Of a stretch of DNA of 64,000 nucleotides, positions 14,221 through 20,620 are shown in pieces; positions within the stretch are counted from its first letter, which is position 1; each line of letters opens with the position of its first letter. Origin of the DNA: Archangium lipolyticum (lineage in GTDB: Bacteria > Myxococcota > Myxococcia > Myxococcales > Myxococcaceae); NCBI RefSeq assembly GCF_024623785.1, contig NZ_JANKBZ010000031.1, positions 62,001 to 126,000 on the forward strand. The letters run 5' to 3'. A program made the translations under genes and the position numbers. The notes below the pieces were generated by a model. The model did no database searches and had not been told where the DNA came from. It saw nothing but the letters and a program-made list of their open reading frames with translations.

Positions 14221-15459
14221 TCAGAGCGCCTCGCAGTAGCCGTAGTTGCAGGCGGGCGCGGACGACGGGCAGTCCGCCGGCCCGTTGCACGTCTTGCACG
14301 AGCTGGCCCCGTTGGCCACCAGGTCGAAGTAGCAGCCGCAGCGCGAGTCGGTGGAGTACGGGCTCAGCGGCCCCATCTCCGACGAGCGCTTCACCTTCAT
14401 GGCGCACTTGGGCACCAGGTGCTTCTGGATGATGACGTCCAGCAGCTCCTTCTCCAACCGGGCCGCGGCGAAGCGGCTGACGAGCGCGGCGGCGGCCGGG
14501 CCAGGCAGGCCATTCTCGGTGCGCGTGTAGAAGTGCACCGGGCCCCAGATGGGGTAGTGCCCATCCCGCACGTTCTGCTTGTCCTTGGCGAAGGCCGTGG
14601 AGTCCGGCAGGAAGCCGCAGGACTGGCCAGTGCCCTGGAACGCCAGGATGCGCAGGTTGCTGCGCTCCTCGTCCGCGATGTCCGTGGAGATGATGCCGAT
14701 GGCCTTCTCCGCCGTGCTCGAATCCAGGAGGACCTTCATGTTGCGGCGCACGCCTTCACTGCCGCCCCGGTCCACGCCCCACCACTTGTCCGCGGGCACG
14801 CCGATGGCCCGGGCGATCATCTGCTGCGTGCCGGAGCTGGCGTTGCGCACGAAGTACAGGTTCTGCTCCGTCCACGGAGCGGCCGCCCCCTTGTTGCCCC
14901 CGGTGCCGAAGACCAGGTAGGCCGCCTCGGCGCTGATGCTGCGCTGCGAGGAGGCCGCCGGCACCACGAAGGTCATCGGCTGGATGGGGCCCTCGTAGTC
15001 GGCGATCTGCACGTTCGCGGGCGCCGTGCTGTCACACGTGGAGGCGTAGACGTCCGAGACGCCCACATCCACCACGTTGCCCTCCGTCGCCAGGGAGCAC
15101 TCCTGCGCCGAGCCGTCCGCGCGGAAGAGGATGGCGTAGTTGGCCGCCCGGCCACCGCTGGCGGGAATGTCCTTGATGACGCGGGCGCTCGGATCCGTGC
15201 TGAAGATGGCCTTCACGCCCGTGCACGAGCCCTGGGACTGATAGACGATGCTCCAGGGAGGCGACTCCCGGGCGAGCAGCTGCGCCACCACGCCGAGGAA
15301 CGGACGGACGGCGGAGGAGCCCGCCACATAGATGGTGTTGGGCCCGGCGCAGCTGATGGTGGGCGTGTTGGTCTGCGCATGCGCCATGGCGCTCGTGAGG
15401 GCCAGGGCGAGCGCGCCCAGCCAGCTCCCCGGCGCGCGCCGGCGAAGGTCGTGTCTCAT
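14221..15459 (-). CDS. PstS-like periplasmic substrate-binding protein with Cys-rich tail
   Basis: 412 aa. Signal peptide ending LALTSAMAHAQ. Substrate-binding fold start NTIYVAGSSAVRPFLGVV matches the PstS-type phosphate-binding loop (GSSA). The last ~45 residues are Cys-rich (RCGCYFDLVANGASSCKTCN, then CPSSAPACNYGYC), unusual for PstS and like the neighbouring Cys-rich lipoprotein. Start ATG 15459 has GGAG 9 nt upstream; an ATG at 15474, directly after the upstream stop, is the alternative. No pst transporter genes adjoin it. Confidence 0.7.
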   Translation of the reverse strand: MRHDLRRRAPGSWLGALALALTSAMAHAQTNTPTISCAGPNTIYVAGSSAVRPFLGVVAQLLARESPPWSIVYQSQGSCTGVKAIFSTDPSARVIKDIPASGGRAANYAILFRADGSAQECSLATEGNVVDVGVSDVYASTCDSTAPANVQIADYEGPIQPMTFVVPAASSQRSISAEAAYLVFGTGGNKGAAAPWTEQNLYFVRNASSGTQQMIARAIGVPADKWWGVDRGGSEGVRRNMKVLLDSSTAEKAIGIISTDIADEERSNLRILAFQGTGQSCGFLPDSTAFAKDKQNVRDGHYPIWGPVHFYTRTENGLPGPAAAALVSRFAAARLEKELLDVIIQKHLVPKCAMKVKRSSEMGPLSPYSTDSRCGCYFDLVANGASSCKTCNGPADCPSSAPACNYGYCEAL

Positions 15460-15476
15460 GCTGCGGATCTCCATGG

Positions 15477-15833
15477 TCAAGGCTTGGGAACGAGCGGAGG
15501 CAGGCTGGCGCCGTCGCACAGCCCCAGCCGCGCGCAGTTGTCGAAGGGAACGCACTGCGCCAGGGTGCACTGGTTGCGGTACTGCTCCTCGGAGGAGGGC
15601 TCGCCCCGGAAACACCCCGGAGGGCCCAGCCCGGAGGGCACGCAGAGGCCCTCCTGGCAGATGGGATAGGAGCCGAACCGGACGCAGTCCTCGTCCGTGG
15701 CGCACTGCGCGGCGCCGCTGTCTAGGACGAGCGAGCAGCCCGTCGTGCCCGCCAGCAGCAGCACCGCCAGCAAGCCCCACCCGGGCCAGTAGCCACGGGA
15801 GGAGCACCTGTCAGGTCGAAGGTCCATACACAT
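15477..15833 (-). CDS. Small Cys-rich lipoprotein
   Basis: 118 aa. Hydrophobic signal LLAVLLLAGTTGC with a plausible lipobox, then a mature domain of about 85 residues with eight or more Cys in a pattern typical of myxobacterial Cys-rich surface proteins (CATDEDCVRFGSYPICQEGL). Probably disulfide-bonded and exported. Followed 2 nt later by the ATG at 15474 of the PstS-like gene, so the two are likely co-translated. Confidence 0.7.
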   Translation of the reverse strand: MCMDLRPDRCSSRGYWPGWGLLAVLLLAGTTGCSLVLDSGAAQCATDEDCVRFGSYPICQEGLCVPSGLGPPGCFRGEPSSEEQYRNQCTLAQCVPFDNCARLGLCDGASLPPLVPKP

Positions 15834-15882: not shown

Positions 15883-16878
15883 CTAGAAGGAGCCGGCGAC
15901 GCCCACGCCGCCCGGCCCCACCCCCACCTGCACTCCGGCGGAAGGCGCGGGCTGCGGCTCGCGAAGGGTCAGCCAGGTGGACACTCCGGCGGCCACCAAC
16001 GTGGCGCCCGCGAGCACGTCCGTGGTGAGCGCCAGGGTACGCGTCCGGCCACTGGCCTGGTCGAGATCGGCGCGGCTCACCCCGAAGGTGTCGCGCCGGG
16101 CCTTCAGGTCACCCGAGGCCTTCAGCGCGAGCACGCCGGTCACCCCCGTGGCCACCGCCAGCCCACCGGTGGCGATCCACGGCACCCAGGGAGTGCTCCG
16201 CTGGGCCTTGACGACCTCGGGCCGTGTGTCCACGGCGGACCGGGGAGCCTCGGACCGCGGGGACGGCGCGGGCGCGGCGGGCGCGGCGGACGCGACCGGC
16301 GCGGCGATCTCCAGGGACACGTCGAGGCTGTCGCGCCCCGCCACGTCCACCACCCGCGTCACCGGCGGGAAACCCGAGAGGGCAGCGGAGAGCTTCCTCC
16401 GTCCCGCGTTGAGCTGCAGCGGCGCGCGCAGGGGCGAGGTGCCGACCGGCACGTCATCCACGGAGATCTCCGCCCCGGGCTTGTTGACGGTGACGCGCAC
16501 CGTGGCCACGCGCGCCTGGAGCCGATCCACCTCGCGCTGGACCTCGTCGCGGCGCTGGGCGGGCAGCTCTCCCCCACCCTCATCGAGGTAGCGCTGGAAG
16601 CTGCCGAGCGCGCTCGCGTAGTCCTGAAGCTGATACTGCACCTGGGCGATGTTGTAGAGGAGCCGGTAGCTCGGCGCGAGCTCGTAGGCACGCTGGAACT
16701 CCACCAGCGCGGCCTGGAAGTCGTTCTCCTCGTAGAGCTCCCTGGCGCGCTGGTAGCGGCTCTGGGCCTCCTCGAGGTTGGCCTTGGAGCCCTTGGGACG
16801 CCCCGCGGCACCGGCGCTCCCGCCCGACAGCGCCAGCGCGAGGGCGAGGGCGAGCGACCTGGACAGACGCATCATCAT
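15883..16878 (-). CDS. Exported TPR protein with PEGA domain
   Basis: 331 aa. Signal peptide ([20 protein letters not shown]), two to three TPR-like helix pairs (residues ~35-110; [20 protein letters not shown]), a PEGA domain (~125-195; [20 protein letters not shown]), a Pro/Ala linker and a hydrophobic region ([20 protein letters not shown]) with one more C-terminal helix. The ATG at 16878 overlaps the kinase stop (ATGA); other ATGs lie at 16887, 16875 and 16872. Likely works with the kinase next door, which also carries a PEGA domain. Confidence 0.75.
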
Positions 16879-18749
16879 TCCTTCCATGGGTTGTTCGAAT
16901 CCAGCTTGCGGCTACCGCCGTTCCACGGGTCCTCCCCGTCGAGGCCGCGCTTGTCGCCGCCGCTCCAGGGGTTGTCCGCGTCGAGACCGCGCTTCGCCTT
17001 GCCGGAGACGGCCGCCGGCTTCGACGGCAGCTCGGAGAAACCATCGTCGGCCGGCGCCGCGGTGGGCTGCGGCGATGGGGCGGGAGCACGGGTCTTGGAG
17101 ACACGCTCCCGGCGCACCTCCACGCTCCGCCGCTGCAGGTTGAGCTCCAGCATCAGGTCCTTCTCGAAGCGGAGCTCCTTCACCAGCGGCGTGAAACCGG
17201 CGGCGCTCACGCGCAGCTGATGCACGGCGCCATCCCGGGGGAAGCTGCCCGTGTAGGGGTTGGACGGCAGCACCTCTCCGTCCAGCTGCACCACGGCGCC
17301 GCGTGGCACCACCTGGATGTGCAGCTCGATCTCCTCCGCGGGGGGCTCCTCGCGCGCGGGCGGCTCGACCGCCTCGGGCTTGGGAGGAGCCACCACCTGG
17401 GACGAGGAGGCCAGGACCTCGGCCGGGGGAGTGGGCAGCGGAGCGGGCGTGGGAGCCGCGGCGGCCACCGCCATGGCGGACACGGCCGGCGACGAGGGCT
17501 CTCGAGGCCGGGAGACGGACACCAGGGCCACGCCTCCGGCCACCAGCAGCAGGGCCGCTCCCACCGCGGGCAGCACCCAGCGCCGCTGGGGGGGGACCCG
17601 CGCCAGGGAGACATGGGAGACGATATGCGCCTCGGTGGGAGGCTCCACCTCGAGCACCCGGGAACGCGGCGCGGACAGGGAGTCCTCGGGGGGAGGAGGC
17701 GGCGGCCGCGTCGGCATCGAGGGCACGACGACCCCCAGCTGGCTCCGGCGCGGCTTGCTGCCATTGCCGGAAACCGGCGTGCCGATCGGCGCCGACATCC
17801 CTGAGGGCATCGAGAGCTGCGAGATGAGCTCCGCGAGCTGGAAGGCGCCCACCGACTGCCCACTCCCGAGCAGGAACCGCTCCAGGTCCGCCTGCATCTC
17901 CCGGCAGCTCTGGTAGCGCTCCTCTCGGTCCTTGGCCAGCGCCCGCTCGATGATGTACCGCAGGGGCTCGGGCACATCGGCGCGCCTGTCGGACACGGGC
18001 GTGAAGGGCTCGTGGAGGATCGCGTTCATCAACGCGACCTCGCTGCTGGCCTCGAAGGGCTTGCGCCCCGCCACCAGCTCATACAGCACGACCCCCAGCG
18101 CGTAGATGTCGATGCGCAGGTCGAGCGGCTCGTTGCGGAGCTGCTCGGGCGCCATGTAGGGCACCTTCCCCTTGAGCGTGCCGACACGCGTCTGGTGCAC
18201 CTGGTTGGTCGCCTTGGCGATGCCGAAGTCCACGACCTTCACGGCCCCCGTGCGCGCCAGGAGGATGTTGTCGGGGCTGACGTCCCGGTGCACCAACCCC
18301 AGCGGCTCCCCGGAGAACGGATCGGCGAACTCGTGCGCGTAGGTGAGCCCCTCGCAGATGGCGGAGACGAGCTTCGCGCAGTGGGGCAGCGGCAGCGGCC
18401 GGCCCGCCGCGTGGGCCCTGCGCATCAGCGCGCGGAGGTTCGGGCCATCGATGTACTCCATGGCCAGGAAGTACGCGCCGTCCGCCTCGCCGAAGTCGAA
18501 GATCTGGACGATGTTGGGATGGTTGAGCTGGGCGGCGAGCCGGGCCTCGGAAAGGAACATCTCCACGAACTGGGGCTCATCCGACAGATGCGGGAGGATC
18601 TGCTTCACCACCAGGGTCTTCTCGAACCCCATGGGGCCCGCCACGCGCGCCCGGTAGACCTTGGCCATGCCTCCATGCCCAAGCTCTCCCAGCAGCTCGT
18701 ACCGGCCCAACCGTGGGCTGTTCGAAACACTGTCTCGGGCGTCCGGCAC
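16875..18749 (-). CDS. Membrane Ser/Thr protein kinase with PEGA domain and PW-motif tail
   Basis: 624 aa. Hanks-type kinase domain at ~17-295: Gly loop [12 protein letters not shown], Lys49 in [12 protein letters not shown] at 154-161, DFG at 174-176, APEQ at 200-203. A cytoplasmic Pro-rich linker is followed by one membrane helix (~391-412) and an outside Pro/Ala linker, then a PEGA domain (~475-540; [20 protein letters not shown]). The last ~40 residues contain three near-repeats ending in PW ([27 protein letters not shown]). Faces the operator-like array at 18857-18927 on its 5' side. Confidence 0.92.
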
Positions 18750-18856
18750 CTGTTACCTCGGCGTCAATAATTGAAGTGCGAATAACGTGTTTTCGTCACT
18801 CTGTCGAGATGACCCAGACACAATGTATTGACTTGACCGGAACAGTGATGAAGCCA

Positions 18857-18927
18857 GTCACGATTTCGTGACACGAGCGACGTCACACTTTCGTGACACG
18901 ACTCAAAGTCACACATTCGTCACACGC
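18857..18927. promoter_or_regulatory. Three-copy operator-like repeat array
   Basis: Three 20-nt direct repeats start at 18857, 18882 and 18908 (25- and 26-nt periods). The first core GTCACGATTTCGTGAC (18857-18872) is a perfect inverted repeat; the second, GTCACACTTTCGTGAC, is near-perfect; the third, GTCACACATTCGTCAC, is weaker. The array ends 13 nt before the ATG of the DUF885 gene and lies about 110 nt upstream of the kinase start on the other strand. It looks like a cooperative repressor or activator site; the regulator is unknown. Confidence 0.6.
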
Positions 18928-18940
18928 CACAGGGGAGAGA

Positions 18941-20620
18941 ATGACGACCCTCGATGCCTTCGTCCGGCTCCGCGCCTCGTTCTTCGAGCGCTATCTCCAG
19001 ACACAGCCCGAGGAAGCCACCACGCTCGGGCTGCACCATCTGGATGACCGGCTGAAGGATCTCTCCGGGTCCGCGCTGGGGGATGAGTACGCCTTCCATC
19101 GCGACGCCCTCGCCCGGCTCGAGCGGCTGCCACCCGAGGAGCTCCCGGCGGACGCGCAGCTCGACCGGCTGTCGATGCTCGGCGTCACCCGGTTCCACGT
19201 CCACACCTACGAGGACCTGCGCGACCACCGGCGGAACGTCGAGCTATCGACCTATCCGCACACCATGTTGCAGTACCAGCTCGGCCAGGCCGAGACGGCC
19301 GGGGACTGGGCGGCCATCGCCAGCCGCGTCGCGTGCATCCCCACGTTCCTCCGGCAACAGGAGCAGCTGCTCGCCGAGGGACTCGCCACGGGCGAGACGC
19401 CCGACGTGCACGTCGTCCAGGACATCGCGGACGACCAGCTGCCCGTCATCGTGCGGTACTTCGAGCACCTCCCGGCCCTGCCCGAAGCGCACCAGGTGAC
19501 GCTCTCCCAGGCCGGAACCCGGGAGCTCCAACAGGCGGCCTGGGAGGCCCGGGAGGCCTTCGCCCAGCACCACCGGTTCCTCCTCGAGCGCGTGCTGCCC
19601 CGCGCGGGCTCCAGTGTCGTGCTGGGTGCGGACGAGTACCAGTGGCGGCTGCGAAACACCTTCGGGCTCACCACCCCCCCCGAGGAGCTGGTGCGGCGAG
19701 CCGAGGACGTGCTGGCCCGGACCCAGGCCTCCATCATCCAGCTCGCCGATCAGCTCGGCGCGCCGCTCTCCAATCTGGCCGAGGCCCGGGCGCTGCTCTC
19801 CCAGCTCGAGACGGAGAACCCGGCCCGGGACGAGGACGTCATCCCCCTCTACCGGGGGCTCATCGAGCGCGCCGAGCGCTTCATCCACGAGCGGGGGATG
19901 TTCGACGTGCCCGCGGGCTACCGGTTGGGACTGAAGGCCATGCCCCCGGGCATGGTGGACGTGCGAGGCACCAACTGGCCCGCGCCGCTGTTGGATCCGC
20001 GCAAGGTGGGCTGGTTCGTGCTGGCCCCCATGGCGCAAGCCCACCCCACGGTCTGGGCCGCGCTGCTGGCGGTGCACGAGGGCATCCCCGGCCACTTCCT
20101 GCAGAGCGTCGCCTGGCAGCGTGGCTTCTCCCAGCACCCCGCCCCGGTCCGCTTCCTCCTGGTGACGGACCACGTGGCCATGGCGCGCGGCAACTTCGGC
20201 CCCATGCTCAACATCGAGGGCCATGCCACCTACGCCGAGGAGCGGATGCGGCGCGAGGGCTTCTACACCGCCCCCGAGTCGCTCACGGCGCTCGTGGCCC
20301 GGGCCCTGCGCGCGGTGCGCGTGGTGGTGGACATCGGCCTCCACACCCGGCGCATGGACGAGGAGGCGGCGGTGCGCTACCTGATGCACCACGCCTGCAT
20401 GCCGGAGCCCAACGCGCAGCGCGAGGTGCTCCGCTACAAGCGCATCCCCATGCAGGCCATCACCTACCTGCTCGGCGCGCTCGAATTCGAGCGGTTGGCG
20501 GAGGACTGCCGGCGCGAGCGCGGGAGCCGCTTCGACGAGGCCGCCTTCCACGACGAGCTCTTCTCGTTCGGCCCGGTGTCGCCCGCGCTCCTGCGGCGCT
20601 TCATGCTGAGCGCGCCGTGA
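18941..20620 (+). CDS. DUF885 family protein, predicted metallopeptidase-like
   Basis: 559 aa, usual length for DUF885. The family's zinc-type motif appears as HEGIPGH at 379-385 (HExxxxH), followed by a conserved NIEGHATYAEE block. No signal peptide, so probably cytoplasmic here. Start ATG 18941 was chosen because GGGGAGAG sits just upstream; an upstream ATG at 18893 would read through the operator-like repeats. The 3' end overlaps the convergent pyrophosphatase gene by 20 nt. Confidence 0.8.
   Translation: MTTLDAFVRLRASFFERYLQTQPEEATTLGLHHLDDRLKDLSGSALGDEYAFHRDALARLERLPPEELPADAQLDRLSMLGVTRFHVHTYEDLRDHRRNVELSTYPHTMLQYQLGQAETAGDWAAIASRVACIPTFLRQQEQLLAEGLATGETPDVHVVQDIADDQLPVIVRYFEHLPALPEAHQVTLSQAGTRELQQAAWEAREAFAQHHRFLLERVLPRAGSSVVLGADEYQWRLRNTFGLTTPPEELVRRAEDVLARTQASIIQLADQLGAPLSNLAEARALLSQLETENPARDEDVIPLYRGLIERAERFIHERGMFDVPAGYRLGLKAMPPGMVDVRGTNWPAPLLDPRKVGWFVLAPMAQAHPTVWAALLAVHEGIPGHFLQSVAWQRGFSQHPAPVRFLLVTDHVAMARGNFGPMLNIEGHATYAEERMRREGFYTAPESLTALVARALRAVRVVVDIGLHTRRMDEEAAVRYLMHHACMPEPNAQREVLRYKRIPMQAITYLLGALEFERLAEDCRRERGSRFDEAAFHDELFSFGPVSPALLRRFMLSAP

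Follow-up and report, generated by a model that had tools for sequence, protein, structure and literature searches.

In Desulfovibrio vulgaris, the PhoB regulator DVU1083 controls the pstS-C-A operon, and a repeated (c/t)GT(n)AC is described as the PhoB box; the motif is reported at only 14 of 30 PhoB targets, with EMSA as the general means of motif validation (PMC3333781). PHO boxes are described as 11-nt direct-repeat units, and several PhoPR systems are on record for Myxococcus xanthus (PMC4415409). Among the titles of open-licence papers, neither a myxobacterial PHO box nor a PHO-controlled kinase operon was found, which is weak evidence of absence. Here, we consider an array of three dyads in the window, i.e., the whole stretch of 64,000 nucleotides of Archangium lipolyticum DNA that was analyzed; the genome of the window (assembly of 12.6 Mb) is termed G000, and other G numbers denote relatives.

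The array shares with the DVU1083 box a repeated (c/t)GT(n)AC half-site whose central base is free, but its step is 11 nt rather than that of 6-bp repeats with a 4-bp spacer, and its boxes are repeated two to five times at the kinase operon (PMC3333781). The 11-nt register and the TGTCA-like core are reminiscent of the E. coli PHO box (CTGTCAT in 11-nt direct-repeat units), whereas the inverted second half-site of copies 1 and 2 and the distance of 25-26 nt between boxes, which breaks the 11-nt register, are not (PMC4415409). As in the complex PhoP operators of Streptomyces coelicolor, the repeat units are variable in number and organization, although the half-site is GTTCACC there and GTNAC in the array (PMC4415409). 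Like the Pho-regulated pst operons, the operon considered here has a phosphate-binding-protein-like product under putative PHO boxes; unlike them, its PstS-like protein comes without permease and ATPase genes and is coupled to a Hanks-type kinase. The array is an ordinary kind of regulatory element whose spacing, multiplicity and target are unusual.

A repeat search of the window recovered the three 20-nt repeats of the preliminary description (18857-18876, 18882-18901 and 18908-18927; identities of 100, 90 and 75%, spacings of 25 and 26 nt). The first copy had been called a perfect 16-nt inverted repeat; it is indeed inverted, GTCACGA-TT-TCGTGAC, but with 7-nt arms around an unpaired 2-nt center it pairs at 14 of 16 positions, and the alternative half-site reading, GTGAC-N9/N10-GTCAC, agrees with the window sequence. 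Copy 1, GTCACGATTTCGTGAC (18857..18872, without assigned strand), lies nearest to the kinase gene and has half-sites 11 nt apart; copy 2, GTCACACTTTCGTGAC (18882..18897, likewise without strand), recurs as an identical 16-mer in G005, where phoB1 and a Porin_O_P gene flank it; and copy 3, GTCACACATTCGTCAC (18908..18923, plus strand), is a true direct repeat and lies nearest to the DUF885 gene. Copies 1 and 2 accordingly read GTCAC/GTGAC and copy 3 reads GTCAC/GTCAC, the half-site GTNAC being itself quasi-palindromic. All three copies keep the 11-nt register within the dyad, and the half-site step between copies is 14-15 nt. Open frames as long as 517 codons run across the array, so that frame length does not separate genes from intergenic sequence here and is uninformative about the other single-site matches. 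Because the conserved part is a GTNAC pair in 11-nt register, the recognition unit is probably this pair and not the 16-nt palindrome.

The window contains three GTNAC-N6-GTNAC sites, all inside the array, and 60 dinucleotide shuffles of the window gave a mean of 0.4 sites and in no case three within 60 bp; the array is therefore not due to chance, and the view that it is an operator array is supported. A two-copy pattern, GTCAC-N6-GTSAC-N{6,14}-GTCAC-N6-GTSAC, occurs in the 12.6-Mb assembly at the array locus only (three overlapping matches), with no match to the reversed pattern used as a control. Among 96 genomes of the family, the pattern matches in three, namely G000 (array locus only), G006 (same locus) and G065, and the reversed control matches in one, G001. 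Extending the search to the phylum (195 genomes) adds G181 and G186, the listed matches being mostly simple 11-nt repeats, with controls matching too. A three-copy scan of all genomes returned at least 119 stretches, and the 80 examined (L050-L129) consist for the most part of minisatellites with an 11-nt unit and of unrelated tandem repeats. In two of them, L051 and L112, from two Cellulomonas species, a further GTCAC accompanies two GTCAC-N6-GTCAC pairs, and the surrounding sequence is similar. The array in G065 (L036:1501-1545) consists of two copies, GTCACGGAATTGTGAC and GTCACAGACTCGTGAC, and is flanked by a LysM/GH19 gene and a SCO1/SenC gene, which might form a further PHO-controlled pair. 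A run of three half-sites at 11-nt steps in G005, GTCAC-N6-GTCAC-N6-GTGAC (L195:1490-1516), immediately precedes a DUF2378 reading frame or coincides with its start.

The preliminary description placed the array before the DUF885 gene (18941..20620, plus strand), the divergent neighbor of the kinase cassette. As to position this is right: the likely start is the ATG at 18941, with AGGGGAGAG in front, and the array ends 13 nt before it. As to ownership it is misleading. DUF885 orthologues (E <= 1e-60) were found in 11 of 96 genomes, and among their 11 upstream regions the array appears in only two, G000 (three copies) and G006 (four copies), so that this comparison, which the preliminary description had itself proposed, speaks against a DUF885 element; upstream of the other nine, there is no exact dyad within 1500 nt and none with one mismatch within 400 nt. 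The DUF885 gene follows a cupin gene at about 50 bp in G003 and about 0.7 kb in G002, with no kinase cassette between them, and the interval of about 4.8 kb in the window as against about 50 bp in G003 would mean that the cassette was either inserted in the window lineage or lost in G003. This difference in length also raised the idea of mobile-element end repeats, which was dropped as the arrays precede the kinase in other contexts. Convergent to DUF885 lies a gene of the inorganic pyrophosphatase family (PF00719; 20604-21140, minus strand), another phosphate-related neighbor.

On the other side of the array, four genes run on the minus strand. The first cassette gene (16875..18749) encodes a Hanks-type Ser/Thr kinase, scoring 147.1 bits against Pkinase PF00069 (cutoff 31.7), with a C-terminal PEGA-like stretch below the Pfam cutoff. 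It is followed by a TPR/PEGA protein gene (15883..16887), the start of which overlaps the end of the kinase gene, by a gene for a small lipoprotein-like protein (15477..15833) with a lipobox recognized by eye and no family match above cutoff, and by a gene (14221..15474, start codon inferred) for a stand-alone substrate-binding protein with a weak PstS-family match. This last protein scores 27.4 against PBP_like_2 of Pfam (cutoff 27) and 43.7 bits against NCBIfam TIGR02136, below its cutoff of 206.6, and is therefore labeled only 'PstS-like'. A PDB search with its profile gave five matches at E <= 0.01, all of them to phosphate-binding proteins and all weak (best E 1.8e-5), and its AlphaFold model, with a mean pLDDT of 50, is too poor to use. 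The cassette contains no permease or ATPase gene. In blastp searches against the neighborhoods of eight genomes, PstS, PstC and PhoU gave no match at 1e-10, PstB matched at no more than 35% identity, and PhoB1 matched in three of the eight at no more than 44%. The PstS-like protein may have a role in sensing or signaling rather than transport.

Matches to the PstS-like protein (E <= 1e-40) occur in 13 of the 92 genomes searched, and stretches were taken from 11 genomes and from G006. The four-gene cassette is recognizable in nine genomes, with the window as query (G000, G006, G041, G079, G073, G063, G067, G056 and G011); in G080 it is cut by a contig end, and in G088, G028 and G039 only the PstS-like gene is present in the stretches examined. 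A separate search with the TPR protein matched in 4 of 16 genomes, closely only in G000 and G006. Eight of the nine cassettes carry an array of two to five GTNAC dyads upstream of the kinase, the one without it being the most divergent, that of G011 (42% identity across 280 residues of the kinase); DUF885 and cupin genes adjoin the cassette only in G000 and G006 among the stretches searched. Since eight of nine cassettes have the array and nine of 11 DUF885 orthologues lack it, the array goes with the divergent kinase operon rather than with DUF885.

Within the arrays of relatives, the 11-nt half-site step inside a copy is near-universal, apart from some degenerate copies. From one copy to the next, the step measures 14-15 nt in G000 and G006 but for the most part 5-7 nt in the other genomes, where degenerate copies in G063 and G067 produce longer steps and G041 ends with a step of 13 nt; the box spacing is accordingly 25 and 26 nt in the window versus 16-18 nt in most relatives. 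Read on the kinase strand in the six more distant genomes, the left half-site is mostly GTCAC and the right one GTAAC, GTCAC or GTGAC. G000 and G006 have arrays with different numbers of copies and different spacers, whereas 105 of the 107 bases from the array to the kinase start (18750..18856, minus strand), the presumed kinase promoter, are identical. This stretch also contains a lone additional half-site (18795..18799; GTGAC when read on the kinase strand), which lies 50 nt before the kinase start and is kept in G006. A degenerate GTNAC-N6-GTNAC-like match with one mismatch (18752..18767, minus strand) covers the kinase ribosome-binding site; it is kept in all eight array-bearing genomes and scores low with the pho-locus matrix described below, and it could be just the ribosome-binding site. 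In five relatives (L234-L238, from G079, G073, G063, G067 and G056), the kinase-proximal copy ends in GTRAAC instead of GTAAC and leads into an A-rich stretch, a possible -10 region for a PhoB-dependent promoter.

The route to PhoB led through a single site in G005, one of 29 single-site matches, which was chosen post hoc for adjoining phoB; the examination of 17 loci came later. This site has the 16-mer of copy 2, with a phoB-like gene on one side and a Porin_O_P gene on the other; the product of the latter has matches only in G005 among the 17 loci, G000 having a separate Porin_O_P gene (by Pfam) after phoB1. The 17 pho-pst loci are those of phoB orthologues from 17 genomes that we selected, G000 included, and two PhoB paralogues (E <= 1e-60) are found in all 17 genomes, so that a PhoB-type regulator is encoded in G000 itself. 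There, the gene order is phoB2, a PhoR/PnpS-like sensor kinase gene, unassigned genes, phoB1, Porin_O_P, pstS, pstC, pstA, pstB and phoU. The pst and phoU products pass their NCBIfam cutoffs, and both PhoB proteins and the sensor fall below theirs: the best model for the paralogues is PhoB TIGR02154 (255 and 246 against a cutoff of 296 bits), and the sensor kinase lies just under the PnpS and PhoR cutoffs.

The 17 loci hold 46 GTNAC-N6-GTNAC sites in 311 kb, with at least one site in every locus, versus a mean of 1.4 and a maximum of five in 20 shuffles, a count that is partly circular given that the sites were first picked by a consensus derived from the arrays; 14 loci flanking cassettes (230 kb) have none. 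The ranking of 5-mers uses the arrays only for the gap length, and in it GTCAC (with its complement GTGAC) is the most enriched of 1024 5-mers as an 11-nt direct repeat, with 37 occurrences against 0.98 expected, spread over 16 of 17 loci; second in enrichment ratio comes GTCCC (eight occurrences, 8-fold). A scan of gap lengths for GTCAC peaks at N6 (37) and N17 (13, i.e., 22 nt) in the pho-pst loci, with an N6 count of zero in 14 control loci. The boxes of the pho loci are nearly all GTCAC/GTCAC, and inverted GTCAC-N6-GTGAC pairs occur there only twice. In G000, dyads lie upstream of phoB2, before the Porin_O_P gene and before pstC, and the same genome therefore has the motif at its phoB and pst genes. 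Triplets resembling half-sites in 11-nt register are found about 65 nt before phoB1 in all 17 loci (10-11 of 12 positions, the middle half-site being degenerate) and 77-90 nt before phoB2 in eight of the 17 (11-12 of 12), the other nine having none above 9 of 12.

A 17-column matrix was trained on 39 of the 46 pho-locus sites, the other seven, far from any pho gene start, having been dropped. Applied to the window, it gives its six best scores all in the array (13.1-21.1; next 9.7), a result that is circular through the same choice of sites. Copies 1 and 2 score better toward the kinase (21.1 vs 13.1 and 20.9 vs 17.1) and copy 3 toward DUF885 (20.9 vs 14.4). In relatives such as G079 and G056, the score is often better on the strand opposite to the kinase, and no clear orientation rule emerges.

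These orientations bear on the question of whether the array, in the lineage of the window, now serves mainly DUF885, a reading that overlaps with the one we prefer, as the regulator may still be PhoB. The end of the array lies just in front of the gene, copy 3 faces it and, in G006, six of eight half-sites read GTCAC on the DUF885 strand; however, copies 1 and 2 face the kinase, the kinase side is almost the same in G006 (105/107), and a promoter would not fit between copy 3 and the DUF885 start, so we hold DUF885 as the main target to be unlikely. A dedicated local repressor that binds the 16-bp palindrome GTCAC-N6-GTGAC cooperatively, with a convergent likeness to PHO boxes, which comes close to the view of the preliminary description, would account for the near-palindromic copies 1 and 2 and for the two-copy palindromic array before the SCO1/SenC gene in G065. 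Moreover, among 92 genomes, all five exact matches to a pattern with a 17-nt period lie at kinase arrays, as expected of a nearly single-target operator, and the 13 one-mismatch matches divide into six at kinase arrays and seven elsewhere. Yet the right half-site of relatives varies among GTAAC, GTCAC and GTGAC, so that the palindrome is not conserved, and the 11-nt dyad also marks the pho loci; we give such a repressor very little credence.

A further alternative is ownership of the array by another OmpR-family regulator of the MtrA, RegX3 or PhoP kind with an overlapping half-site preference. Other members of this family have similar half-sites, RegX3 and MtrA rank first among full-length solved structures related to PhoB1, the DNA-binding domain of PhoB1 scores 67.2 bits with RegX3 against 61.3 with E. 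coli PhoB, and MtrA is the second-best NCBIfam model for the PhoB-like protein. Against this stand the concentration of the same dyad at pho-pst genes, including the fronts of phoB genes, and the PstS-like protein encoded in the operon, and we consider such an owner distinctly improbable. Of the other kinds of element considered, a CRP/MrpC-type site was rejected as its spacings do not fit, and a sigma-54 enhancer array as no GG-N10-GC was seen by eye near the kinase; an RNA element was judged unlikely, since 100-200 nt separate the array from the kinase downstream and since, in most relatives, the array precedes the conserved presumed-promoter stretch.

We are thus confident, if not certain, that the array represents three PHO boxes for a PhoB-type response regulator, which would most likely activate the kinase operon under phosphate starvation. 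PhoB itself is the most likely regulator, to judge from the motif and its genomic distribution. What we observed directly is the array itself, the way it accompanies the kinase cassette, the 11-nt rule, and the occurrence of the same dyad at pst, phosphate-porin and phoB genes in G000 and its relatives. Several features count against PhoB: the inversion in copies 1 and 2 and the placing of copies 25-26 nt apart, not at the 22 nt of tandem 11-nt units, and further the weak PstS-like score, the PhoB and sensor scores below cutoff, the arrayless G011, the mixed orientation and the presence of the D. vulgaris motif at no more than 14 of 30 targets. No 22-nt tandem of adjacent boxes is present. We did not treat such a tandem as obligatory, since a PHO box is defined as two units in PMC4415409; its absence makes the array less similar to a classical tandem operator.

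In the mechanism that we infer, phosphate starvation would lead the sensor kinase to phosphorylate PhoB, of which the pho-pst locus encodes two PhoB-like paralogues, and phosphorylated PhoB would bind the array, each pair of half-sites offering at 11 nt the register that seats two effector domains of a PhoB-type (OmpR-family) regulator. Activation rather than repression of the divergent operon would follow, with production of the kinase, the TPR/PEGA protein, the lipoprotein-like protein and the PstS-like protein. The array may also act on DUF885, which starts 13 nt away and adjoins the array in G006 too. The periods of about 17 and of 25-26 nt correspond to 1.6 and 2.4 turns at 10.5 nt per turn, roughly half-integral values, so that successive PhoB dimers would occupy nearly opposite faces of the DNA, unlike the same-face arrangement of a 22-nt tandem. 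We speculate, tentatively and with more doubt than belief, that the operon of the kinase and PstS-like sensor has an adjustable phosphate-starvation input, in which the number of boxes (two to five) and the gap between them evolve while the 11-nt box is kept, and that the mixed orientations in G000 and G006 reflect a two-way operator that captured DUF885.

With these results, an orphan array gains a candidate regulator. The group also gains a usable PHO-box consensus, GTCAC-N6-GTCAC, which recurs at phoB, phosphate-porin and pst genes and makes the phosphate regulon readable from genomes. The Hanks-type kinase operon with its PstS-like protein offers a testable link from phosphate starvation to Ser/Thr phosphorylation.
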